DNA of 64,000 bases, taken from IMG/VR virus record IMGVR_UViG_3300022746_000016, positions 102,548 through 166,547 of that record; one strand, written 5' to 3'. This stretch comes from a virus. The notes beneath the pieces were generated by a model. The model ran no database searches. It was not told the DNA's origin and saw only the letters and a list, made by a program, of their open reading frames with translations. Shown here one piece after another: positions 1 through 16,333 of the stretch. Positions within the stretch are counted from its first letter, which is position 1. Every line of letters starts with the position of its first letter. The translations under genes were made by a program, and so were the position numbers.

Positions 1-546
1 ATCATAATCGTCAAGCATGAGAGAAGTAGGCTCAATGTCAATAGCAGCAGTGTGTTTAAGATGCTGCATATAGAACCAAGTAGAATAACGCCCAAACTTG
101 TGAAGGTTTGTCTTAAGTACTCCCCAAAGTACATCAAAGTTTTGCTTAGAGCTACCCACATAGAACGATTCGAGTTTTTCACGTTGTGATCCATTTCCAA
201 TAAATTTCTGATATGATTCGAACATCACAGGTAGATGTCCCTTGTTCCACTTAGTGTCTGTCTGATAACGGAGACGTTTGTAGTTCTTAGAATTCCAGTC
301 AGTGATACGTCCAAGGTCAGCGAGTTCGTAGTCAGGGAATTCATTCTTCAACACCCATGCAGTTGGGAGTTGATACGTGTTTCCATATAGCCATGCAAGC
401 CAGATGCGTTCTTCATCGTTATGCTCATAGCGATCATTGAGATAGTTTGTAGCCCATACAGCTGGGTCACAATCATTATACTGTAATGACCAAGCATACC
501 AACGGATGAACGCTTCACGTCGGTTTTCTTTTAAGCGATAATCCAT
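1..546 (-). CDS. Amino acid:DNA transferase-like protein (AADT / aGPT-PPlase clade 2), 3' end outside window
   Basis: The first 182 residues are present; the C-terminus lies beyond the left edge. Visible blocks fit my recollection of the alpha-glutamyl/putrescinyl-thymine pyrophosphorylase clade 2 family, later called amino acid:DNA transferases: an EAFIRWYAW block near residue 11, WLAWLYGNTYQLPTAW at 49-64, YQTDTKW at 94-100, FGRYSTWFYMQHL at 151-163 and an acidic LMLDDYD at 176-182. Known members attach amino acids or amines to activated 5-hydroxymethyl-pyrimidine in phage DNA. The start ATG overlaps the stop of the GNAT gene (TAATG), so this is the last visible gene of a coupled operon with the dioxygenase. 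I infer that it adds the final side chain to a modified base. Family assignment is fairly confident; the substrate is unknown. Confidence 0.7.
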   Translation of the reverse strand, partial: MDYRLKENRREAFIRWYAWSLQYNDCDPAVWATNYLNDRYEHNDEERIWLAWLYGNTYQLPTAWVLKNEFPDYELADLGRITDWNSKNYKRLRYQTDTKWNKGHLPVMFESYQKFIGNGSQREKLESFYVGSSKQNFDVLWGVLKTNLHKFGRYSTWFYMQHLKHTAAIDIEPTSLMLDDYD

Positions 547-1187
547 TATTTCAAAAAGTCCTCAAGTGATGGTTGATCCATCAGTGCTTCTCTTAACCAA
601 GCCTTACCGACTGTATCAATAGCAGCTTGTGTCTTAGCTTTCTTCTTTTCGCCCCAAGTGTATGACTCTAAACCTTCAGCAAGGAATTGAGCACGAGCCT
701 TAGCTGGTGGTAATGCTTGAAGTGGGTTTACGATTGCGTTGTCTCTGTAGGCAATTTGTTCGGCACGTGTAGCGAATAGTGGCTGGTCTGAGCGGAGTGA
801 ACCAGTCGGGTCAACTGCCCAAAACACCAAACCATTCCGATTGTGCCAGCCGACACTTGAGGGAGTACAAGAGATTTTAAGTCGTTGGACTTTTCGTTCT
901 TCGACTGCGTACTTGATCCACGCGTCCCAGCACTTGGACGCATAGCCTTTACCTTCTTGCCCTTCGAGCGTGACGATTTCGTAGAGGTTGGCATATCCAT
1001 CCCGATTAAATGTAGCAAAGATTAGAGAGACAACTTCACCGTTGACTTCGTAAGCCATTGGCAGAGACTTATCGTAGTTATGGAAACGAGTCCACAATGA
1101 GTGTGCAGCCGATAAGAACTTGGTGTTCTTACCAGCTGGACTCGATCCGATAAGCTGTTGTACTTTGGTTGAGTTTACAAGAATCAT
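546..1187 (-). CDS. GNAT-family N-acetyltransferase in base-modification cassette
   Basis: A 213-residue protein with a GNAT core. The acetyl-CoA pyrophosphate loop is seen as EGQEGKGYAS at residues 75-84 (Q/RxxGxG/A type), followed by an amphipathic helix and a beta strand (VQRLKISCTP). The C-terminal 80 residues are basic and helical and match nothing I recognise. The gene is coupled on both sides: its ATG overlaps the amidotransferase stop (ATGA) and its stop overlaps the next start (TAATG). GNATs are known tailoring enzymes in phage DNA-hypermodification clusters, where they acylate an amino group on the base. This role is inferred from context; acetylation of a protein or small molecule is also possible. 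Confidence 0.75.
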   Translation of the reverse strand: MILVNSTKVQQLIGSSPAGKNTKFLSAAHSLWTRFHNYDKSLPMAYEVNGEVVSLIFATFNRDGYANLYEIVTLEGQEGKGYASKCWDAWIKYAVEERKVQRLKISCTPSSVGWHNRNGLVFWAVDPTGSLRSDQPLFATRAEQIAYRDNAIVNPLQALPPAKARAQFLAEGLESYTWGEKKKAKTQAAIDTVGKAWLREALMDQPSLEDFLK

Positions 1188-1870
1188 AATTGGTAATCTA
1201 CTGCACCTTCGATGTCTACTTTCTCGAGAGTATGAGACAAGTCAGCGTCGATAGTATGGTAGATGTTCATAGACAATGGAACAGTTGTATAGTTTAGGTT
1301 GGCGCGTTTAGCAACGTTAGCCGTAGAAGTAATTATACATCCGTCATCCAAAACTGTCAAATATAATGGTCGCTTACCATTGCGGTATGTGCGCAGTGTT
1401 CTGTCTGTGTGTAATTCACAAACAGCAAGGCTTGCATCTTTCCAGTGCTCTAGTGGGCTGTAGTCAGCGAGTGAACGGAGTAATAGTTCGGTGTCGTTCT
1501 TACCATCGCATGCGTATCCGTGCAAGACTTCCCAATCAGCAGGATCGTGCTGAGTAATAACACCATTATGGACAATTGATGTTGATTCATTTGCTATCGG
1601 TTGGTTATACAATAAATCGCTAGTACTATATCTGCAGTGACCAATAAGGTAAAGAGTACCATCGTCATCAACCATCTCCTCTAAATCATCTAGTTTTCTG
1701 AATTCATCCGCTGGGACTGGTTCTTTAAAAGTATGGATTACCCCACCTTTGAGGTAGGATAATCCAGTCGCATGCAGTCCACGAATACGAGATTCGTGGA
1801 ATACATTTCTAATCATATCAAAGTGGGTTGCTGTGGGTTTTTGAATCACAGCACCGATAACAGCACACAT
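1184..1870 (-). CDS. Class II (Ntn-type) glutamine amidotransferase
   Basis: A 228-residue stand-alone glutaminase domain. The N-terminus MCAVIG puts the nucleophilic Cys at position 2, exposed after Met removal. Other family marks are RG at 30-31, GHCRYST at 77-83 (glutamine binding), HNGV at 101-104 (oxyanion hole) and D116-T-E. Such domains hydrolyse glutamine and pass ammonia to a partner synthase, but no synthase domain is fused here, so the acceptor must be another protein. The gene sits between the TET/JBP dioxygenase and GNAT genes with overlapping junctions (TAATG and ATGA). I infer that it supplies nitrogen for amination of an oxidised DNA base. A general nucleotide-metabolism role cannot be excluded. 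Confidence 0.85.
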   Translation of the reverse strand: MCAVIGAVIQKPTATHFDMIRNVFHESRIRGLHATGLSYLKGGVIHTFKEPVPADEFRKLDDLEEMVDDDGTLYLIGHCRYSTSDLLYNQPIANESTSIVHNGVITQHDPADWEVLHGYACDGKNDTELLLRSLADYSPLEHWKDASLAVCELHTDRTLRTYRNGKRPLYLTVLDDGCIITSTANVAKRANLNYTTVPLSMNIYHTIDADLSHTLEKVDIEGAVDYQL

Positions 1871-3240
1871 TAAAAGAAACTTTCTAAGTCGTTGGACTTG
1901 ATAGACTGTGGATGATACTTGTGCAATTCTTCAGTACCAAGTTTACGTTCTAGGTAATCATACCACTCTTTGTCTTCCCACATACCTTGACTCACACCAT
2001 TCCACAAGTGACGAGCAGAGCCATCTTCATTCTTATGACCTGGATGTTCTTTATCAAGACGACGAGATTCAACATATTCATAACGACAATCTTCGTATGC
2101 CTTAGAACCTAACTCAAGCATCTTCTCACGGAAATAGCATACCAAAGAAATACGCTCGGCAGATTCGTCTTCAAGAACAATCGGAGTATTTCCATGCATA
2201 ACTTCGTGGTTGTTGATCAAGAGTAAGTCACCTGGACGCACGTTCACAGCAACACGATACTCAGGAGCGATCAAATATCCACCAGAGTATTTACCATTGT
2301 TGGAAAGAACCAACAGGTTAGATAAACCAGTCTGCAAGTCACCAGCATCGTAGTGAGCAGCAGTTCTGAATGTCTTGTTCACAGTGATTGTAGTGAATGG
2401 AGTCCCTGGAACTAAGAAGCCTTGATCAATTTTCTTGGCAGCTTCCATCTGGTTGTTGTAACGCCATGGGAGCAAGTCCTTGAAACCTTTAGCAAGAGTC
2501 TGTAGGAATGGGAATGCCATCGCAAACTTTTCTGGTTCACGTTGAGTGTAAGATGTTGCACGACCATAAGGGATTCGTGGATAACGATCGAACCAACCAG
2601 CGATACCAGAGAACACACCATTGGCGTAAGTAGTGGAACACACATACTTCTTAACGATTCGATCTGCTTCTGCTTTCATCTCATCATTTGAGAGTTTCTT
2701 AGTTGCATCAACCCAAGTTTCGAAGTCGAAGCCATCTTTCTTAACTGCTTGGATACCCCAAACGTTGTTACGTGTAGATGGTTGTTCTTTCTTACCTTTG
2801 TGCGATGCACGGATCTCTTCAATTGGATCTTCACCAAACAAGTTGGCAGATGGATTAGAGAAATAGTCGATGACATCGTACTCGTACTCAGTAACCCACT
2901 CACGATTACCTAGCTTCTCGCCACGTGGACCAGCAGCCATACCACGGTTCTGTGTCTCTACTGCAGCTTCACGCAGACCAGCATAAGCTGCGTCTTGTTG
3001 TTCTTTACTGAAGTAGTTCTTACGGAACTTAAATGCGATGCGCAGTTCGTCAGTACCCTTGTCACAAGATGAGCAGTCTCTTCCAGTACCACACTCAGCT
3101 TGAGTTGCAATGTCACAGTTAGCTGGCATATAAACGTCAGCGTCTTCATCAACCAAAATGTCGTAATGTGATTCATCTAGGAATTGACCCTCAAGATGAG
3201 CGCAGTCATATTTTCTTTCTGCTACAATTACTTTAACCAT
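1870..3240 (-). CDS. TET/JBP-family Fe(II)/2-oxoglutarate dioxygenase, DNA base oxidation
   Basis: A 456-residue protein whose C-terminal half has the TET/JBP-type double-stranded beta-helix: HYD at 296-298, a distal HEVMHGN at 335-341 (H339 the likely ligand) and R353 for 2-oxoglutarate, within strands YRVAVNVRPGDLL and RISLVCYFRE close to JBP sequences. JBP hydroxylates thymine in DNA and TET oxidises 5-methylcytosine. No C5-methyltransferase or thymidylate synthase is in the window, so the target base is open. Cysteines 42, 50, 56 and 59 may bind metal. I chose the ATG at 3240 because AAGGAG lies 7 bases upstream; a longer frame would run into gp41. The stop overlaps the amidotransferase start. 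Family assignment is strong. Confidence 0.85.
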   Translation of the reverse strand: MVKVIVAERKYDCAHLEGQFLDESHYDILVDEDADVYMPANCDIATQAECGTGRDCSSCDKGTDELRIAFKFRKNYFSKEQQDAAYAGLREAAVETQNRGMAAGPRGEKLGNREWVTEYEYDVIDYFSNPSANLFGEDPIEEIRASHKGKKEQPSTRNNVWGIQAVKKDGFDFETWVDATKKLSNDEMKAEADRIVKKYVCSTTYANGVFSGIAGWFDRYPRIPYGRATSYTQREPEKFAMAFPFLQTLAKGFKDLLPWRYNNQMEAAKKIDQGFLVPGTPFTTITVNKTFRTAAHYDAGDLQTGLSNLLVLSNNGKYSGGYLIAPEYRVAVNVRPGDLLLINNHEVMHGNTPIVLEDESAERISLVCYFREKMLELGSKAYEDCRYEYVESRRLDKEHPGHKNEDGSARHLWNGVSQGMWEDKEWYDYLERKLGTEELHKYHPQSIKSNDLESFF

Positions 3241-3251
3241 TTCTCTTCTCC

Positions 3252-4646
3252 TTAAAATTTCCAACCGTCAAAACTCTCAGCCTTAGCACGTTGACCAAAA
3301 TCACTCTTATCAAACATCGGAACATCATCCTTCTTATGACCAGCGTCCATCAAACCTTCTTGTGCGGATGCTTCCACATCGTAAAGTTTCATCTTAGCTC
3401 GATCAACTCCGATAACAAATCGTTTGTAAAAACCTGGATCGTTGTAACGATTCTTGAGTTGTTTAACGATAATCTGATTCAACTGCTCTAATTCTTCATT
3501 ACTTACCAACGCAAACATAAAGTCAGCAGTGGCAGGTAGACCGAAAGATTCTGAGGTATCTTCCAGCCCTGGATCGCTGTTTGTATAACCTGAACGAGTA
3601 GTCTGAGTAGCCGATACGATCGGTACGTTATACTCAACTGCAAGACCACGTAACTCTTCAGCAATTGCCTTAATATATGTATAAGAGTTAACTGAGCCAC
3701 CTTGCTTCATTCGTTGAGAAGCACAGATGTTCAAATAGTCAATCATAATGATATCGGGTTTAAACTCACGCTTCAACTTTAACTCTTCCAACAAGGCTCT
3801 GAAGTGTCCAGCATGGGCACCAGCAGTCGGGTATTCTTTGATGATCAACTTACCTTGAGTCTTCTTGGCCAACTTAGCCAGTCGTGATTCGTAGATATCC
3901 TTGTCAATCACTTTCAATTCGTCCATGGTCAGGTTAAGAAGGTTCGCGTCAATACGTTCGGCGATACGTTCTTCAGCCATCTCCATTGTTATGTATAAAA
4001 CATTTTTACCAGCACTTAGAGCACCAGCAGCAACGTGACACATAAACAGAGACTTACCAACACCAGTACCAGCTAGGACGATATTGAGAGTTTTCTTGGA
4101 CAGACCACCCTTGGTAATCTTGTTGAACATCTCAAGGTCGAAAGCAACCTTCTCTTCAACACGATGATAAAACTCATAGCGAGAGTCAGCGTCATCAAGA
4201 TAATCGTGACCAACATGATTATCAAATGAAACGGCAAGAGCATCAGAGAGAATAGATGGGATTGAATCAGTAGTGAACGTCTTGTCCCGACCTTCTTGGA
4301 TTCGGATGGAGGTAAGGATTGCATTATACACCGCCTTGTCTTTACAAAACTTCTCTGTGTTGGTAAGCAACCAGTCTTCATTGATTGGTGCATCAACAAG
4401 CGTATCAATAAACGAACTGACTTCAACAAGTTCTTTTTCGTTGATGTCAGTTCGGTTACTTACCTCGATTGCCAGAATCTCTTTTGTTACTGGCTTGTTA
4501 TACTTCGTGAAGAATTCTGAAATCTCGTTGATAATGATCGACTCTTTTCTGTCGATAAAATACTCACGCTTCAAAAACGGAATTACTTTTCGGCAGTAGT
4601 TCTCATCATAAATCAGTCTGCTCAGAATCTGTTGTTCTAATCTCAT
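3252..4646 (-). CDS. 41: Replicative DNA helicase, T4 gp41 (DnaB-like)
   Basis: A 464-residue RecA-fold hexameric helicase that unwinds the fork 5'-3' and recruits primase. Walker A is GTGVGKS at 193-199, Walker B the PDIIMIDYLN segment, and a Q/R-rich sensor region follows (SATQTTRSG). The N-terminal 150 residues are helical as in gp41. The ATG at 4646 is preceded by a TTG that could also start translation; the upstream signal is only a G-rich AGGCGGGG. The gene overlaps the 110-residue protein upstream by 41 bases and precedes the base-modification cassette by 11 bases. Helicase and DNA-modification enzymes are therefore probably made from one message. Confidence 0.95.
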   Translation of the reverse strand: MRLEQQILSRLIYDENYCRKVIPFLKREYFIDRKESIIINEISEFFTKYNKPVTKEILAIEVSNRTDINEKELVEVSSFIDTLVDAPINEDWLLTNTEKFCKDKAVYNAILTSIRIQEGRDKTFTTDSIPSILSDALAVSFDNHVGHDYLDDADSRYEFYHRVEEKVAFDLEMFNKITKGGLSKKTLNIVLAGTGVGKSLFMCHVAAGALSAGKNVLYITMEMAEERIAERIDANLLNLTMDELKVIDKDIYESRLAKLAKKTQGKLIIKEYPTAGAHAGHFRALLEELKLKREFKPDIIMIDYLNICASQRMKQGGSVNSYTYIKAIAEELRGLAVEYNVPIVSATQTTRSGYTNSDPGLEDTSESFGLPATADFMFALVSNEELEQLNQIIVKQLKNRYNDPGFYKRFVIGVDRAKMKLYDVEASAQEGLMDAGHKKDDVPMFDKSDFGQRAKAESFDGWKF

Positions 4647-4938
4647 CAACCCCGCCTGTGTAGGAAATACTATTCTTTTGTAACTGGTCCATAATTATAA
4701 ATTGGAGCAAGTCACCGAGATAGTGCTCTAGTTCTTCTTTGATATAAGTGACACCTGCATCTTCATGCACCTCATAATCGAAATGCATTTTGCAGGTGTC
4801 ACCGTCTTCATCAAAGCTAACCGCACCGTAAGAGAAGATTATACCTGAGTATTCACCTTCTGTCAACTTGATTCGGTCTTGTTCGCCACTGCGACTCTCC
4901 AAGACTACGAATGGTGGTTTAGCTAGATGGTCACTCAT
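4606..4938 (-). CDS. Small conserved protein between uvsX and 41
   Basis: A 110-residue acidic protein of unknown function. It begins with MSDHLAKPPFVVLESRSG and has alternating hydrophobic strands (IIFSYGAVSF, CKMHFDYEV) followed by a helix (YIKEELEHYLGDLLQFIIMDQL), which suggests a small alpha/beta fold. It overlaps uvsX by 8 bases and gp41 by 41 bases, so translation is coupled to recombination and helicase genes. I recall unnamed proteins of this size at this place in other aquatic T4-like phages, but I cannot assign an activity. The frame is supported by the tight packing and by the lack of any alternative frame. Confidence 0.8.
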   Translation of the reverse strand: MSDHLAKPPFVVLESRSGEQDRIKLTEGEYSGIIFSYGAVSFDEDGDTCKMHFDYEVHEDAGVTYIKEELEHYLGDLLQFIIMDQLQKNSISYTGGVDEIRTTDSEQTDL

Positions 4939-6691: not shown

Positions 6692-7270
6692 TTATAATTC
6701 GTAACCAAACTGTTCAAAATCTTTCTTGTAGTAAAGACGAACCATATCTCTAGTCTCATCATCCCATTCAACCTTTTGTTTCGGATGGGAGTTGACTGTT
6801 TGTAACTTAACACCAAGACGACTTTCCAGAGGCTCCAAGTTTTCATACTTGAATATCTCAATCGGATAATCGCAGTCAATGAACATACTCTGAGTTCGGC
6901 TGATGCTGTCTGTAGAATTCTTAGTTCGATTAAACAGCACGTACTTTAACCATGGCTTGAAATCAAAATTCATATATGCCACGTAGTCTTGGTAGTCAGC
7001 TTTCTTCTGTTGTAAAGAATATGTATCATAGTAATCTTTGTACATAATCCTAGAGTAAGAAAAGATAGACTCGACTCTGTCGTATGGGTTTCTTGCAATA
7101 CAAAAAGAGAAGTCGGGTTTATACTTATGATACTCGCAACGATTAACCAAAGTAGATAAGAAATGGTGATTGTTCATCCACTTCTGATAGTTGATGTCTG
7201 GACTATCAATCATAGCATGGCGGACAGCAGAGCCAGCATTCTTAGGTATATGTAAAAATAGAACGTTCAT
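6692..7270 (-). CDS. Sulfotransferase-family protein, copy 1
   Basis: A 192-residue protein. HIPKNAGS at 7-14 matches the 5'-phosphosulfate loop of PAPS-dependent sulfotransferases, and RNPYDR at 60-65 the 3'-phosphate site. Such enzymes move sulfate from PAPS to a hydroxyl or amine on sugars, tyrosines or small molecules. The ATG overlaps the stop of the 2OG oxygenase upstream (ATGA), so hydroxylation followed by sulfation is a plausible pair. A paralogue at 16330-16920 shares the ends of the fold (DDExRxMVRxYxKxDFExFGYE). The length is short for cellular enzymes. The substrate is unknown. Confidence 0.82.
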   Translation of the reverse strand: MNVLFLHIPKNAGSAVRHAMIDSPDINYQKWMNNHHFLSTLVNRCEYHKYKPDFSFCIARNPYDRVESIFSYSRIMYKDYYDTYSLQQKKADYQDYVAYMNFDFKPWLKYVLFNRTKNSTDSISRTQSMFIDCDYPIEIFKYENLEPLESRLGVKLQTVNSHPKQKVEWDDETRDMVRLYYKKDFEQFGYEL

Positions 7271-7806
7271 TTCTTATGTGGTACGTCAAATACAAAGGTT
7301 ACACGAACACAGTCGCCTATGTTCTTAGTCCCATGGGGTAGTTTATTGTTGAACCATAGCAGGGTTCCAGGTTCTACCGTAACAGATTCATCTCCCACTG
7401 TGTATATGTATCTGCCTTGGATGGACAGATGATAGCGGTCTCTAGTTTGGTAGTAACTTCCAATATCAATGTGCGTTCCAACTTCTCCACCAACTGGCAG
7501 AGATAGGAAACCACATCGACTGACTTTCTTAAAGTGTCGCTTAACGAAGCCAATGACTTCTGTGTGGTGTTGAATAGCTGGAGTTGGAATACAATACTCT
7601 GTGTCTCCAACGTACTGGTCTATATGTTCAACACCACCCATCACAAGCTGCAATACACCAGCTTGAACTTCGGGGAATCCATATGAGAGCATGGACTTAA
7701 CTCCATCTACTCTTTTCTGAACTCCCCAGTCCTCTGGGTATTTTTCTAACTGTGCCAAAATCTTTGACACATTTAAACCAGTCTTAATGATTCTAATGTT
7801 CTTCAT
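7267..7806 (-). CDS. 2OG-Fe(II) oxygenase, Asp/Asn beta-hydroxylase-like
   Basis: A 179-residue cupin-fold oxygenase. The iron site is H112-I-D114 and H158, with R168 for 2-oxoglutarate. The segment RYHLSIQGRYIYTVGDESVTVEPGTLLWFNNKLPHGTKN has the spacing of the aspartyl/asparaginyl beta-hydroxylase family, split here by the short loop between strands. It would hydroxylate a protein side chain or small molecule using Fe(II), O2 and 2-oxoglutarate. Its stop overlaps the start of sulfotransferase copy 1 (ATGA). Its own ribosome site is weak (GGATTACT), and its 5' end faces the divergent GIY-YIG gene at 7842. Confidence 0.8.
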   Translation of the reverse strand: MKNIRIIKTGLNVSKILAQLEKYPEDWGVQKRVDGVKSMLSYGFPEVQAGVLQLVMGGVEHIDQYVGDTEYCIPTPAIQHHTEVIGFVKRHFKKVSRCGFLSLPVGGEVGTHIDIGSYYQTRDRYHLSIQGRYIYTVGDESVTVEPGTLLWFNNKLPHGTKNIGDCVRVTFVFDVPHKK

Positions 7807-7841: not shown

Positions 7842-8426
7842 ATGAAACCATTTACCTACCTTATTAAGTGTATCCCAACTAACCAAGTTTACTATGGTGT
7901 TCGGTACTCATCAAACTGCCACCCAGACCAACTCTGGAACTCATACTTCACATCATCTAAAAGAGTTCATACTCTAATCGAAAAATATGGAGTAGAAAAC
8001 TTCCAAACTCAGATAAGAAGGACATTCTTAACTGCAGAAGAAGCGGTTAGATGGGAGACTAAAGTCTTATCTAAACTTAATGCTGCTAAGTCAGAGGTCT
8101 GGCTAAACTGTCAAAATGGAGACTACAAGTTCAAAAACAAAGGTGGATATAAACTACCAGAGTCTAAGAAAACTAATTTTAGAAAACCTAAAAGCGAGTC
8201 CCATAAACAGTCTATGAAAGATCGTTACAAAGTAAAACATAAACATTATAACGACGGTAAAAAGTCTTATTATCTTCCAGAAGATTCCCCTCTAATAACA
8301 GAGTTAAACCTAAAAGAAGGACAAGTTATAACAAAATGTCCACATTGCAGTAAAGAAGGTAAACTAAACGCAATGCTTAGATGGCACTTCAATAACTGCA
8401 AGACATCACCCGAAAAAACCCTCTAA
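7842..8426 (+). CDS. GIY-YIG-type endonuclease, probable free-standing homing enzyme (downstream of 43)
   Basis: A 194-residue plus-strand protein. The N-terminus FTYLIKCIPTNQVYYGVRYSS resembles a divergent GIY-YIG nuclease (YLI...YYG...R), with a later E in EEAVRWETKVL as the metal ligand. The C-terminus has a CPHC...H...C zinc-finger-like unit (TKCPHCSKEGKLNAMLRWHFNNC). It is a clear paralogue of the protein at 10939-11544; together they flank DNA polymerase. Its 3' end overlaps the end of gene 43 by 21 bases on the opposite strand. Codon use is AT-rich compared with neighbours. Homing next to a replication gene is inferred from T4 seg and mob precedents. Confidence 0.82.
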   Translation: MKPFTYLIKCIPTNQVYYGVRYSSNCHPDQLWNSYFTSSKRVHTLIEKYGVENFQTQIRRTFLTAEEAVRWETKVLSKLNAAKSEVWLNCQNGDYKFKNKGGYKLPESKKTNFRKPKSESHKQSMKDRYKVKHKHYNDGKKSYYLPEDSPLITELNLKEGQVITKCPHCSKEGKLNAMLRWHFNNCKTSPEKTL

Positions 8427-10938: not shown

Positions 10939-11544
10939 ATGAAACCTACTATCCCATTTACCTATCTTATCCACTTCAAAGCGACAGACCAATATTATTA
11001 TGGTTCTCGATATAGAAAAGGATGCAACCCATCTGACTTATGGTCAGTATATTATACATCATCTAAAGTTATAAAACAACTAATCTTAGAACACGGTAAA
11101 GATGCGTTCACGGTATCTGTGAGAAAGATATTTAATACAGCAGAAGAGGCTAGAAAATGGGAATCTAGATTCTTAAATAAAGTCAAAGCAGCACAGTCAG
11201 ATAAATGGCTAAACAGGCATAACGGAGATGAGAAATTCTATGGGAGAGGGCACCATGGAAATTTGGGTAAAAAGTTATCACAATCCCATCGAGAAAATAT
11301 TAGCAAAGGGCAACTAGGAATAAAACGTGGTCCATTTTCTGAAGAACATCTAAGAAAAATATCAGAATATCGTCAGGGTAAGAAACATTCTCCTGAAGTA
11401 AAACAGAAAATGTCAGATTCTAGAAAAGGTATATCCAAGACGCTAAACTTAGTTACATGCCCGCATTGTGGTAAATCTGGCAAAGGTGGTAATATGACTA
11501 GATATCATTTCAACAGGTGTGCTCAGCTAACTGCTTTACCATAA
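10939..11544 (+). CDS. GIY-YIG-type endonuclease, probable free-standing homing enzyme (upstream of 43)
   Basis: A 201-residue paralogue of the protein at 7842. It shares the N-terminal FTYLIHFKATDQYYYGSRYRKG, the AEEARKWESRFLNKVKAAQS helix and a C-terminal CPHC...H...C unit. In the middle it carries NUMOD-like basic repeats (SQSHRENISKGQLG, SEEHLRKISEYRQGKKHS, PEVKQKMSDSRKG), which in homing enzymes wrap DNA. It is divergent from gene 43 and convergent with dexA, overlapping the dexA end by 22 bases. A TATAAATA element lies directly upstream. The intermediate region gives good support for the homing class. Confidence 0.87.
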   Translation: MKPTIPFTYLIHFKATDQYYYGSRYRKGCNPSDLWSVYYTSSKVIKQLILEHGKDAFTVSVRKIFNTAEEARKWESRFLNKVKAAQSDKWLNRHNGDEKFYGRGHHGNLGKKLSQSHRENISKGQLGIKRGPFSEEHLRKISEYRQGKKHSPEVKQKMSDSRKGISKTLNLVTCPHCGKSGKGGNMTRYHFNRCAQLTALP

Positions 11545-13060: not shown

Positions 13061-14352
13061 TTAATGTCCTTAGACGAGTCCGCAACTTCTTTGTCATCAC
13101 GAATCTCGAGAATGATAGGGAGGAACAAAGATTCTTCCCCAGCTTTGTTCTTGATTCTAGTATTATACTTGATCGCTGCGATCTTGTCAATTATTTCTTT
13201 ACCGAGAGTCTTGCGTTGGTCATCAGAGAAGCCAGAGCCAACTCGAACTTTAATTACACCATCGGCAGATTCACAGAGAATTGCACCAAGCATACCTGCA
13301 TACTTACCAGTACCTTCTTCGATACCTACAATCTTCAGATCGCATTCCAACTCACCTTTGAATTTGATCTGAGTCTTGGATCGTTTATCTTCCCAAACAC
13401 CACTGAGGTCTTTCAGGATGATACCTTCTTGACCCATGGACAGATATCGTTCGAAGATTACATTGGCTTCTTCGATATTCTGAACAACAGTCTTTTGGAC
13501 CAAATAAACTTTGTCTGGCTCATGAGTAGCCAGAAGATTAGCCAGAGTTTCGATTCGTTTCGAATATGGTGTACCACAGTATCCAGTTTCGAACATTACA
13601 TAAGGGATGATATCCCAAACAGTGGCACGAACCTTCGCTGCATCGGCTGCAGAGATTGTACCCTTGTTTGCTTTGTTAAGAATACCGTTGCCAGTTTGAC
13701 GATCGAGAATCTTGTCACCTTCCATGACCAGAAGTTCACCATCGAACACGCAGTCTATTGGACCAGCCATATCGATGAAGTCTTGTTCGAGGTTGCCAAG
13801 CAGTTGAATCTCTTTACCATTTCGGCTACGAAATTCGCATTTACCATCACGAACAATAGCGTTGAATCGCATACCATCCATCTTCAGCTGAACCATTGCT
13901 GGGAATTTAATCTTATCCACTAGCTTCTGCTCGAAAGGTGAGCAGAGCATAACAGGATATTCTATAATCAAACCCATCCACACATCATTGGCAGTAGATG
14001 CTTGCACACCACACTTCAGATCTTTCTGGATGATTCTCTCCATAACCTTAGCATCATCAGGCGAGAGGGCTTGTAGGATATTAGTTAAGTGGTCAATGGC
14101 TGCGTTACCAGTAACCAAACGCTCACGCAGATCGTAGAGAGCAGGGAGCATTGATGCTAATGAAGCAGGATGTCCAGTCGTGTTAGGTGTGTACGCTGGA
14201 ATCTTGCGTTGATAGAATTGAGTGAATGGACACAATGCCAGTCGAATCACTTCACGTAGCAACTCATTGTCTTTGTTTGCTTCCAACTGATCACGTTTGA
14301 AGTTGCGAGATGAGTTAGCAGCGAGGGATTCGAGGAATTTGTGGATGTTCAT
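13057..14352 (-). CDS. 30: ATP-dependent DNA ligase, T4 gp30
   Basis: A 431-residue ligase that seals nicks by an AMP-lysine intermediate. The nucleotidyl-transfer motif KMDGMR gives Lys157 as the active residue. Later motifs are FRSRNGKEI (III), VFDGELLV (IIIa/IV), EGIILKDL (IV) and the QIKFKGELECDLKIVG segment (V/VI), all in order. The N-terminal 140 residues match the helical DNA-binding domain of T4 ligase. The start overlaps the upstream gene's stop (ATGA). It processes Okazaki fragments together with gp43, gp41 and gp45 of this window. Confidence 0.96.
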   Translation of the reverse strand: MNIHKFLESLAANSSRNFKRDQLEANKDNELLREVIRLALCPFTQFYQRKIPAYTPNTTGHPASLASMLPALYDLRERLVTGNAAIDHLTNILQALSPDDAKVMERIIQKDLKCGVQASTANDVWMGLIIEYPVMLCSPFEQKLVDKIKFPAMVQLKMDGMRFNAIVRDGKCEFRSRNGKEIQLLGNLEQDFIDMAGPIDCVFDGELLVMEGDKILDRQTGNGILNKANKGTISAADAAKVRATVWDIIPYVMFETGYCGTPYSKRIETLANLLATHEPDKVYLVQKTVVQNIEEANVIFERYLSMGQEGIILKDLSGVWEDKRSKTQIKFKGELECDLKIVGIEEGTGKYAGMLGAILCESADGVIKVRVGSGFSDDQRKTLGKEIIDKIAAIKYNTRIKNKAGEESLFLPIILEIRDDKEVADSSKDIK

Positions 14353-14531
14353 TTTAACTCTTTGAATGTTCTATATTTGGTGTAGAAGGGCAGAGGCTTG
14401 GAAAACTTCTTCGTTGTCTTTGTATCGACATTGTAGAACGCAACCAGCTTGCACTTATCGTCAGTGACATAGTAGATGTGATTAGAAACCTTCTGGCTCC
14501 AATCCTTGGTTGTCTCTTGCAAGACTCTCAT
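14349..14531 (-). CDS. Small protein coupled to ligase
   Basis: A 60-residue protein, MRVLQETTKDWSQKVSNHIYYVTDD, rich in beta-prone residues and Lys. It overlaps ligase by ATGA at its end and the next small gene by ATGA at its start, which decides the ATG at 14531 over one twelve bases upstream. Proteins of this kind are seen beside gene 30 in related phages, but I know no function. Its short strands (HIYYV, CKLVAFYNVD) suggest a small beta fold. Confidence 0.68.
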   Translation of the reverse strand: MRVLQETTKDWSQKVSNHIYYVTDDKCKLVAFYNVDTKTTKKFSKPLPFYTKYRTFKELK

Positions 14532-14671
14532 TTCTTCATCCAAGTACGGGCACCAGATGGAGCCTTCTTTTTGGTTTCGATGACTTGGACTGTGCCACCA
14601 CGTTTGAGAAAAGCCTTCAATTGTTTTTCGGTTTCAGCACGCAACTCAGCTTTGGATTTTACTTGGAACAT
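14528..14671 (-). CDS. Short basic protein
   Basis: A 47-residue, strongly basic protein, MFQVKSKAELRAETEKQLKAFL, followed by a glycine turn and a strand (RGGTVQVIETKKK). AGGG precedes the ATG at 14671. The start and stop junctions are tight, which supports translation. The charge suggests contact with nucleic acid, which is inference only. I do not recognise a family. Confidence 0.6.
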   Translation of the reverse strand: MFQVKSKAELRAETEKQLKAFLKRGGTVQVIETKKKAPSGARTWMKK

Positions 14672-14684
14672 AGTCACCCTTTCA

Positions 14685-14882
14685 TTAAACAAAATCGTAC
14701 GCAGTTTCAGAACCAACTCGAGAGATGATTATACCACACTTCAACTTTTTAAGCAAGGCAGTTTCGAGTTTGACAGCTTCAGGTACTGAACACTCAACGA
14801 ACAGCGAACCGCAAGTAAACGATGCAGGAACATTACCCAAAACACTAGACACTTCAACCAACACGTCTTTTTCGAAACTCAT
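14685..14882 (-). CDS. Small protein, first gene of ligase operon
   Basis: A 65-residue protein, MSFEKDVLVEVSSVLGNVPASF, with strands CGSLFVECSVP and CGIIISRVGSETAYDFV separated by a helix. AAGGA lies eight bases before the ATG, and a sigma70-like promoter is centred about 45 bases upstream. It is therefore the first coding unit of the ligase to dexA group. No family is recognised. Confidence 0.65.
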   Translation of the reverse strand: MSFEKDVLVEVSSVLGNVPASFTCGSLFVECSVPEAVKLETALLKKLKCGIIISRVGSETAYDFV

Positions 14883-14913
14883 TTTCAGATCCTTTTCTCG
14901 ATTCATTAGATAT

Positions 14914-14942
14914 ATTATCGCTCAGAATCAAATAAAAGGCAA
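14914..14942 (-). promoter_or_regulatory. Sigma70-like promoter of ligase operon
   Basis: TTGCCT (14942-14937), 17-base spacer, GATAAT (14919-14914) on the minus strand. It lies between a hairpin that follows the glycosyltransferase-methyltransferase gene and the first small gene of the ligase group. Confidence 0.65.
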
Positions 14943-14961
14943 CAACTAAATGCAATAACCC

Positions 14962-14982
14962 TACAATCCTGAGGGGATTGTA
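14962..14982 (-). terminator. Hairpin after the 15005-17839 group
   Basis: An eight-base perfect stem (14962-14969 with 14975-14982) with a five-base loop lies 22 bases below the stop at 15005. The downstream T-tract is poor, so termination may be partial. A TATAAATC element overlaps the stop-proximal side (14985-14995). Confidence 0.45.
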
Positions 14983-15004
14983 AGTTGTTGATTTATAAGG
15001 GATT

Positions 15005-16333
15005 TTAGAAGGCTTCTAGGACGTGTATAGGGAACACGTCATTCAGGGGCTGGAACCCCCACTCTGGGAGGTCGTAGGAACCTTTAGAGAGGCTTTTAGA
15101 GGGTCTTAGACCGATCTTAGGGTACAGGTCTTCGGTAAGCCACCAAGCATGCGAGATGACGATTTTAGAGCCTTCTTTTAGGTTTGCTCGGACATTCGTA
15201 AAGAACTTCAGGCGATCTTCTGAGGTGCAGTGGTTCAGAACGGAAAAGAGCAGGATGTAGTCGAACTTACCTTCGAACTGAAAATCTTTCACGACATATA
15301 GAGTTGGATTCTTTTCAGAACCTTCGGTTAGCTCTTTTGCAACTTTGATGAAGCTGTCGTTAAAATCAACGCCTGTGTAGTTCGATTCGTTCAAGTAAGA
15401 GATCAGATGTTCACCTGCTCTTAATGGACCACAACCAACATCAACCAGTTTGTGTTCTGGTTTTAATCCATTATCGATAAGAAGTTGAAGTTGGAACTGT
15501 CCTCGTTTATCCCATCGTTCTGCCTTACCACCAATCTGTTGTTTGTATGTTTCAGAATCAATGACTACTTTGCTATAGTCTTTCGGTAAACAGATAAAGG
15601 TATCATCAACGTAGTCATTGTTTGGTCCAGCAAAGTGAACAAGAACAGATCTTGGGTTTAGCTTATCACCAACAATAAGTTCACCACCGACTCTGTCTCG
15701 ATATAAGTCAGCCATCTTATCCATAAATCCTAAAGAAGAATCATACTTAACGATATACTCTTTTGGCCAGAATACTATGTCATGAGTCTTCTGAAGGTTT
15801 TGCCAGATGAATCTCTGCTCACCAAAGAATGGTGGGAACTTCTCTTTATACAAACCACTTTTAGAACCTAGATGATAATGCATCATCCAGTAGCTTGGAC
15901 GTTCTAAGAATTTCTGTAGCACATGGAGGTTGGATCCATCTGCTTTGAACTTTGATACACCAGAGTTAATAGGTGTGCCGATCTGATTCGTCCACCATCT
16001 GAATGCATATAACTGTTCGCCAGTATTGACTGGGTACTTGATAAGTTTCTCTGGATCTCCGATGAACACTTGATCAATATCCATAATGATAACTTCATCA
16101 TCAGAAGAAGCACCAATAAAGTTTGGATCGAAGAAACGAAGTTTGTTCCACTGTCTTTTTAAAAGAGGATCCTCACCAATAGGTATGACTACAATATTTT
16201 CGTCTAATCCAGAAGCATCCTCAGTCATACAAATGAATCGAATATCTGGAATGTGTTTGATGCTATTGTATAAACGATTCACATTCTTTGATGGGTACTT
16301 GGTACCATACTTGAGAGTACAAATGTGTATCAT
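15005..16333 (-). CDS. Two-domain glycosyltransferase-methyltransferase fusion
   Basis: A 442-residue protein. Residues 1-235 look like a nucleotide-sugar glycosyltransferase: LKYGTKYPSKNVNRLY at the start and MDID at 84-87 as the DxD metal site. Residues 265-442 are a class I SAM methyltransferase with DVGCGPLRAG at 298-307, TGVDF in the acidic loop and ILLFSVLNHC after strand 4. The stand-alone protein at 60084-60830 has the same N-terminal family marks. The gene is coupled by ATGA to sulfotransferase copy 2. The likely task is to place and methylate a sugar on a phage or host glycan. The acceptor is unknown. Confidence 0.85.
   Translation of the reverse strand: MIHICTLKYGTKYPSKNVNRLYNSIKHIPDIRFICMTEDASGLDENIVVIPIGEDPLLKRQWNKLRFFDPNFIGASSDDEVIIMDIDQVFIGDPEKLIKYPVNTGEQLYAFRWWTNQIGTPINSGVSKFKADGSNLHVLQKFLERPSYWMMHYHLGSKSGLYKEKFPPFFGEQRFIWQNLQKTHDIVFWPKEYIVKYDSSLGFMDKMADLYRDRVGGELIVGDKLNPRSVLVHFAGPNNDYVDDTFICLPKDYSKVVIDSETYKQQIGGKAERWDKRGQFQLQLLIDNGLKPEHKLVDVGCGPLRAGEHLISYLNESNYTGVDFNDSFIKVAKELTEGSEKNPTLYVVKDFQFEGKFDYILLFSVLNHCTSEDRLKFFTNVRANLKEGSKIVISHAWWLTEDLYPKIGLRPSKSLSKGSYDLPEWGFQPLNDVFPIHVLEAF

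Follow-up and report, generated by a model that had tools for sequence, protein, structure and literature searches.

Which modified base is made by a phage gene cassette that combines a TET/JBP dioxygenase, a stand-alone glutaminase, an acyltransferase, and an amino acid:DNA transferase (AADT), and what does the glutaminase do there? The question is raised by the beginning of the window, by which we mean the whole 64,000-nucleotide stretch of DNA that was analysed (positions 102548-166547 of the 166547-base viral record IMGVR_UViG_3300022746_000016, from an uncultured T4-like phage). We propose that this cassette hypermodifies thymine through 5-hydroxymethyluracil (5hmU) and 5-phosphomethyluracil, and we consider this very probable.

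A run of overlapping genes

Window positions 1-3240 hold four minus-strand open reading frames (ORFs) with overlapping stops and starts: the TET/JBP protein (TET), the glutaminase (GAT), a GNAT acyltransferase, and the start of the AADT. The junctions between successive genes are TAATG, ATGA, and TAATG. The initial annotation had described this row, placed after a gp41 helicase, and we found it just so. AADT is truncated only because the window ends there; the genome itself continues, as the window coordinates and the length of the record show. To the left of the window, the run continues with the rest of AADT, a 154-amino-acid protein, and a P-loop kinase, again with stop-start overlaps throughout. 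The apparent lack of a base kinase in the initial annotation was thus an edge effect: the kinase lies 0.9 kb past the edge, in the same run. Coordinates outside the window are given on L002, where the window position is the L002 position minus 17547.

1870..3240 (-): TET/JBP dioxygenase, 456 amino acids; Tet_JBP 92.7 bits (cut-off 34.9); predicted thymine (5-methylpyrimidine) hydroxylase
Codons 2355-2353, 2349-2347, 2196-2194, 2154-2152 (-): iron and 2-oxoglutarate (2OG) residues H296, D298, H349, R363 of TET
1184..1870 (-): stand-alone class II (N-terminal nucleophile) glutaminase (GAT), 228 amino acids; GATase_6 37.7 bits (cut-off 27); no synthase domain
Codon 1867-1865 (-): nucleophile Cys2 of GAT; further site residues R80, N102-G103, D126
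546..1187 (-): GNAT acyltransferase, 213 amino acids; Acetyltransf_1 27.1 bits (cut-off 20.7); EGxEGxGYAS acyl-CoA loop
1..546 (-): AADT start, first 182 of 339 amino acids (complete gene L002:17074-18093); ADDT 74.7 bits for the full-length protein (cut-off 26.2)
L002:16613-17077: 154-amino-acid protein of unassigned function, between AADT and kinase, left of the window
L002:16011-16616, ~0.93-1.54 kb past the window edge: P-loop base kinase, 201 amino acids; Ploopntkinase3 32.0 bits (cut-off 27)
3252..4649 (-): gp41-like DnaB replicative helicase; PHROG 19, 434.8 bits; outside the chemistry

Every catalytic protein of the cassette scores above its curated Pfam cut-off. The four family calls made from the letters alone therefore hold, including the two for which a profile check had been suggested: the dioxygenase falls inside TET/JBP and the first protein inside the AADT family. 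The helicase ORF ends 12 bases before the start of TET. It is a constant upstream neighbour of the cassette and precedes TET in related loci as well.

Conservation of the cassette across environmental viruses

We scanned environmental viral contigs with TET, glutaminase, and AADT as seeds, and our locus counts use the best 80 matches per scan. The loci are not independent events, because the phages are related and some contigs were found by more than one scan. All three scans converge on the same gene set, with relatives that are down to about 45-67% identical to the window's proteins. The cassette is common in environmental viruses, with at least 577 relatives of the glutaminase and at least 478 of AADT. 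Among the glutaminase-seeded loci with enough DNA, TET is upstream in 41/41, AADT is downstream in 45/45, and the kinase is present in 29/29; AADT-seeded loci with enough DNA contain the glutaminase (40/40), TET (29/29), and the kinase (55/55). After removing identical spans, all 99 of the distinct loci with the four core genes have them in the order TET, GAT, AADT, kinase. Because 99 distinct loci carry the core genes in one order, their grouping is far beyond chance.

In one TET clade, a cytidylyltransferase and a glycosyltransferase replace the entire GAT/GNAT/AADT/kinase block. Among 126 distinct TETs with 1.5 kb of downstream sequence, the only ones that lack the glutaminase belong to this clade. 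Three of its loci are:

L051:11350-13100, L083:8025-9792, L077:8995-10765: TET, then cytidylyltransferase and GT4-like glycosyltransferase

These might be systems for glycosylated 5hmU. Both arrangements after TET, the amination block and the glycosyltransferase module, would be expected from pathways that share a hydroxymethyl base as their intermediate.

One contig that is binned to an Actinomycetota metagenome-assembled genome (L260:50-3600) contains the glutaminase, an amidoligase, a second type of GNAT, and the start of AADT. It is probably a phage fragment and perhaps hints at the host.

The starting base

The HxD...H motif and the 2OG-binding arginine of TET (H296, D298, H349, and R363) are invariant in 21 homologs, and TET2 is the top sequence match in the PDB. 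We did not find a C5-methyltransferase (PF00145) in any of 16 distinct records, including the complete genomes of Cr30, DLP6, and C48C1, while 10 of 14 control genomes were positive. A member of PF00303 (thymidylate synthase/hydroxymethylase) was found neither in the phage nor in the environmental relatives searched; among the 12 records covered, Caulobacter phage Cr30 is the sole carrier. ThyX, which makes ordinary deoxythymidine monophosphate, is encoded in all 9 of the records checked, from the phage and its relatives.

Because ThyX is present, and because the environmental genomes that we checked have neither a C5-methyltransferase nor a PF00303 enzyme, thymine is the expected starting base. 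Judging from this gene content, the simplest reading is that TET most likely has thymine in DNA as its substrate, like JBP, which hydroxylates thymine within DNA (PMC6449724). Thymine is also favored over cytosine because AADT has just one confident structural match, which uses 5-phosphomethyl-deoxyuridine. This match is PDB 8z2m, the 5-phosphomethyl-2'-deoxyuridine glycinyltransferase gp46 of phage PaMx11, and was obtained with a model of moderate confidence (pLDDT 78). gp46 belongs to the same Pfam family as AADT, PF18724, with 97.1 bits; beyond family and fold, the direct sequence similarity of the two proteins is not significant. The initial annotation had the chemistry beginning on "T or C directly", and we can narrow this to T with fair confidence.

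Existing annotations call the TET/JBP homologs of Cr30, DLP6, S-CBWM1, and HTVC112P (L008, L009, L243, and L244) "SNF2 DNA repair protein", apparently an annotation error that is spreading.

The glutaminase

The active site of GAT is intact: Cys2, R80, N102-G103, and D126 are invariant in 28 homologs and align with the glutamine site of GlmS. An AlphaFold model of GAT (pLDDT 91) matches the glutaminase domain of GlmS (E = 1.6e-11), PurF, and the stand-alone amidase EgtC, all of which have the fold and the catalytic residues of GAT. We rejected the idea that GAT is itself a GlmS, PurF, or asparagine synthetase: with 228 amino acids it has no synthase domain, and it scores 19-31 bits against NCBIfam cut-offs of 267-418. 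Nor does it belong to any other named NCBIfam equivalog, as every score was far under the cut-off.

We also considered a separate synthetase partner. About 10 kb to the left of the window edge, L002:6739-7497 (-) encodes a 252-residue PP-loop-like protein with an SGTDSAL motif. It has no match in Pfam, PHROGs, NCBIfam, or PADLOC, and could be a QueC/AsnB-like ATPase. We set it aside as a partner for GAT: it has no relative in the other loci, most of which do not extend to its position, and we saw no link to the cassette.

The interval between the glutaminase and AADT is a tailoring slot that holds one of three mutually exclusive modules. Among 121 distinct intervals, 72 contain the GNAT, 31 contain an amidoligase and a second GNAT family, and 18 contain an amidoligase and a low-molecular-weight phosphatase. 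(The two amidoligases that we profiled scored 17.4 and 26.1 bits; the cut-off is 22.) The EGxEGxGYAS loop is conserved in the alignment of the GNAT. In quick trees, the module label switches at least 16 times on the AADT tree and at least 10 times on the TET tree, and the strong branches alone require about 3 to 6 switches of a given label.

Some relatives have optional extra genes, namely 2OG oxygenases, radical-SAM enzymes, and one unassigned insert. Radical-SAM enzymes adjoin AADT and the kinase at L013:12319-13842 and 14316-15803, and also in L021 and L032; one of them has a weak B12-binding match. Possibly, these inserted enzymes tailor the base further.

A proposed pathway

In the known pathway, 5-hydroxymethyl-deoxyuridine (5hmdU) is the substrate of a 5hmdU DNA kinase, which is followed by an alkylamine transferase (PMC6449724). 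We propose that thymine in the phage's DNA would be hypermodified after replication. TET, whose family is clear and whose substrate is predicted, would hydroxylate thymine in DNA to 5hmU, and so take the place of the deoxyuridylate hydroxymethylase that phages like PhiW-14 and PaMx11 use. The P-loop kinase, an activity predicted from its family (PF18751, with no match to PF18748, the HMUDK family, among those listed), would then phosphorylate 5hmU to give 5-phosphomethyl-deoxyuridine. AADT, given its family and fold, would swap the phosphate for a nitrogen nucleophile. The glutaminase would hydrolyse glutamine and pass the ammonia to this step, forming 5-aminomethyl-deoxyuridine in DNA. Finally, the GNAT may acylate the primary amine, for instance to 5-acetamidomethyl-deoxyuridine, and the amidoligase would be its equivalent in sister phages. 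The phage would probably gain protection from restriction by its host.

We give this full route, from thymine to an acylated amine, an even chance. The use of glutamine-derived ammonia, taken alone, falls slightly short of that. We hold somewhat more tentatively the idea that the free-standing glutaminase and AADT together form a two-part amidotransferase that acts on DNA, which would make 5-aminomethyl-deoxyuridine in one step on TET-oxidised thymines, with the GNAT or amidoligase modules then decorating the amine. The initial annotation also envisaged a coupled pathway with the glutaminase as the source of ammonia. The protein families and their conserved co-occurrence support the coupling; the product and the role of the glutaminase are what we infer. 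A role for the glutaminase in the pathway is suggested because it always occurs with AADT, the kinase, and TET and is absent where the glycosyltransferase module replaces them.

Comparison with known systems

The most informative comparison is with PaMx11, whose genes run gp46 (glycinyltransferase), gp47 (FAD oxidoreductase), gp48 (acetyltransferase), gp49 (kinase or kinase-like), gp50, and gp51 (thymidylate synthase-like). According to Wen and colleagues in 2024, the FAD oxidase reportedly forms 5-aminomethyl-deoxyuridine. Like PaMx11, our phage has a PF18724 transferase with a matching fold, a P-loop kinase, and an acyltransferase in the tailoring slot. But PaMx11 begins with a thymidylate synthase-like enzyme that acts on the free nucleotide, and in the cassette TET, acting on DNA, takes the place of this PF00303 hallmark; in PaMx11 an FAD oxidase occupies the place of the window's glutaminase; and the PaMx11 kinase is from another Pfam family. 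We found no match to the gp47-like oxidase in 9 records, in a search that lacked a positive control, and there is none in the core run.

Phage Simon (PQ683277) has a PaMx11-like cluster, at 40-51% identity, in which an amidoligase and a low-molecular-weight phosphatase replace the acetyltransferase. This amidoligase and its counterpart in the window's relatives are 42% identical, and the phosphatase comes next, so that the tailoring slot is filled as in sister phages of the window. In Sonora and RHph_TM26, the oxidase is present and no tailoring enzyme precedes the next pathway gene. Scans of viral contigs for relatives of Simon's amidoligase and of PaMx11's FAD oxidase found nothing beyond PaMx11 itself. 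The GNAT and the amidoligase/phosphatase alternatives both act on amines. Because the slot beside GAT and the slot after the amine-forming oxidase hold the same two alternatives, GAT is a plausible source of the amine. By analogy, it may stand in for PaMx11's glycine transfer and oxidation as the source of the nitrogen in 5-aminomethyl-deoxyuridine.

Simon's cluster (L254:4852-12531) is unannotated and is a candidate for a new base. In Vibrio phage 2.275.O (L255:7890-13098), a relative of the amidoligase (28% identity) adjoins annotated genes of the 7-deazaguanine pathway and a "nucleophile aminohydrolase".

Other systems share parts of the proposed chemistry. Cr30 has relatives of TET (48%), AADT (32%), and the kinase (38%) in one region; it differs in having a PF00303 enzyme and non-adjacent genes, and we detected neither this GNAT nor a glutaminase. 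The latter negative is weak, as are the others from our whole-genome search with PF13522, which missed the window's own glutaminase (direct hmmscan did find GAT). Phages of the ViI/CBA120 type (Kuttervirus) have an AADT homolog (27.5% identity), a kinase-annotated gene nearby, and a common 5hmdU intermediate (PMC6449724), but they have no TET or glutaminase and they make 5hmdU before replication. In base J synthesis, too, a TET/JBP enzyme first hydroxylates thymine in DNA (PMC6449724), and one sister clade has TET plus a glycosyltransferase; the hydroxyl group is glycosylated in base J, whereas it would be phosphorylated and aminated here. In one CmoY cluster of the CmoX/CmoY systems, a glutamine-hydrolysing domain is the proposed source of ammonia for a phage DNA base (PMC12783734). 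That domain is fused to an asparagine-synthetase-like ligase that acts on a cytosine carboxylate (PMC12783734), and ours stands alone beside AADT.

Thymidine hypermodification through 5-phosphomethyl-deoxyuridine is already known, and the combination of TET, AADT, and kinase is visible in Cr30. TET-linked systems of such a sort are said to have been predicted by Iyer and colleagues in 2013. As far as we checked, three features are new: a glutaminase that stands alone and is always present, a choice among three tailoring modules that replace one another, and a module set in common with the PaMx11 type. With TET as the first enzyme and a glutaminase, the phage would reach a known class of DNA that resists restriction, but by a variant route. 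If our proposal is correct, then some phages oxidise thymines that are already part of the DNA to enter the 5-phosphomethyluracil pathway, instead of making a modified nucleotide, and glutamine nitrogen is placed directly on a DNA base. The cassette would also be an enzyme set that can be reconstituted to put amines, acyl groups, or amino acids on thymines, and it would allow one to test directly whether thymine is the substrate of phage TETs that lack a C5-methyltransferase.

Alternative explanations

Several observations weigh against the route from thymine to an acylated amine. The match of AADT to 8z2m (probability 1.00) has TM-scores of 0.54/0.62 and E = 0.085 on a model with a pLDDT of 78. 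Nothing in the sequence of AADT indicates ammonia over an amino acid as the nucleophile; GAT-linked AADTs, compared with canonical ones, show no clear loss of anion-binding residues. The GAT model resembles EgtC, a gamma-glutamyl amidase, nearly as closely as it resembles GlmS. Between the GNAT and gp48 of PaMx11, no specific sequence similarity could be detected, and none of their direct similarity is significant. Also, Asp301 of TET aligns at the position of N1387 in TET2. We take this to be the cytosine-contacting position in NgTet1, where an aspartate would presumably favor cytosine. An explanation that has the same front end (thymine, 5hmU, and 5-phosphomethyluracil) is that AADT attaches a whole amino acid (glutamine, glutamate, or glycine) and that the GNAT acylates the adduct. 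The glutaminase would then act beside or after AADT, as an EgtC-like hydrolase of gamma-glutamyl or amide bonds or as a supplier of glutamate. This is the main competitor for the role of the glutaminase, and we consider it rather unlikely. It fits the transfer of amino acids by characterised relatives of AADT (title of PDB 8z2m); the 42 positions conserved in canonical AADTs that our AADT retains; EgtC being stand-alone and of the same size as GAT; and the nearest annotated relatives of GAT, from phages tf and BA6, which lie in sets with amidoligase or ATP-grasp genes (and an AIG2-like gene in tf). Yet the glutaminase is just as constant without an amidoligase (72 of 121 intervals), and on chemical grounds a GNAT acylates N-alkylated amino acids less readily than it does a primary amine.

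The front end itself would change if the substrate of TET is 5-methylcytosine or cytosine. The cassette would then yield a hypermodified cytosine, an idea put forward for other phage TETs. Asp301 would fit this, and the phage TETs characterised so far reportedly act on 5-methylcytosine (Burke and colleagues, 2021). We consider it improbable given the missing C5-methyltransferase in the 16 distinct records, the missing PF00303 hydroxymethylase in the environmental records searched, and the deoxyuridine substrate of the AADT fold match. Even less probable, in our view, is that the glutaminase, perhaps with the GNAT, is a co-transcribed passenger that serves nitrogen supply or host takeover instead of base modification. 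GAT does diverge faster than its neighbors (median identity among relatives of 60% versus 74-75% for TET, AADT, and the kinase), and Cr30 would be a case of the other three genes without it, subject to the weak search. But GAT co-occurs obligately with AADT and the kinase and is lost together with them, the adjacent slot has been swapped repeatedly while GAT is unchanged, and the genes are stop-start coupled.

Other genes in the window

By eye, window 6692-7270 (-) encodes a sulfotransferase-like protein, and the adjoining gene at 7267-7806 (-) resembles 2OG-dependent aspartyl/asparaginyl hydroxylases. Two similar ORFs at 7842-8426 (+) and 10939-11544 (+), which look by eye like GIY-YIG homing endonucleases, flank a DNA polymerase gene on the opposite strand.

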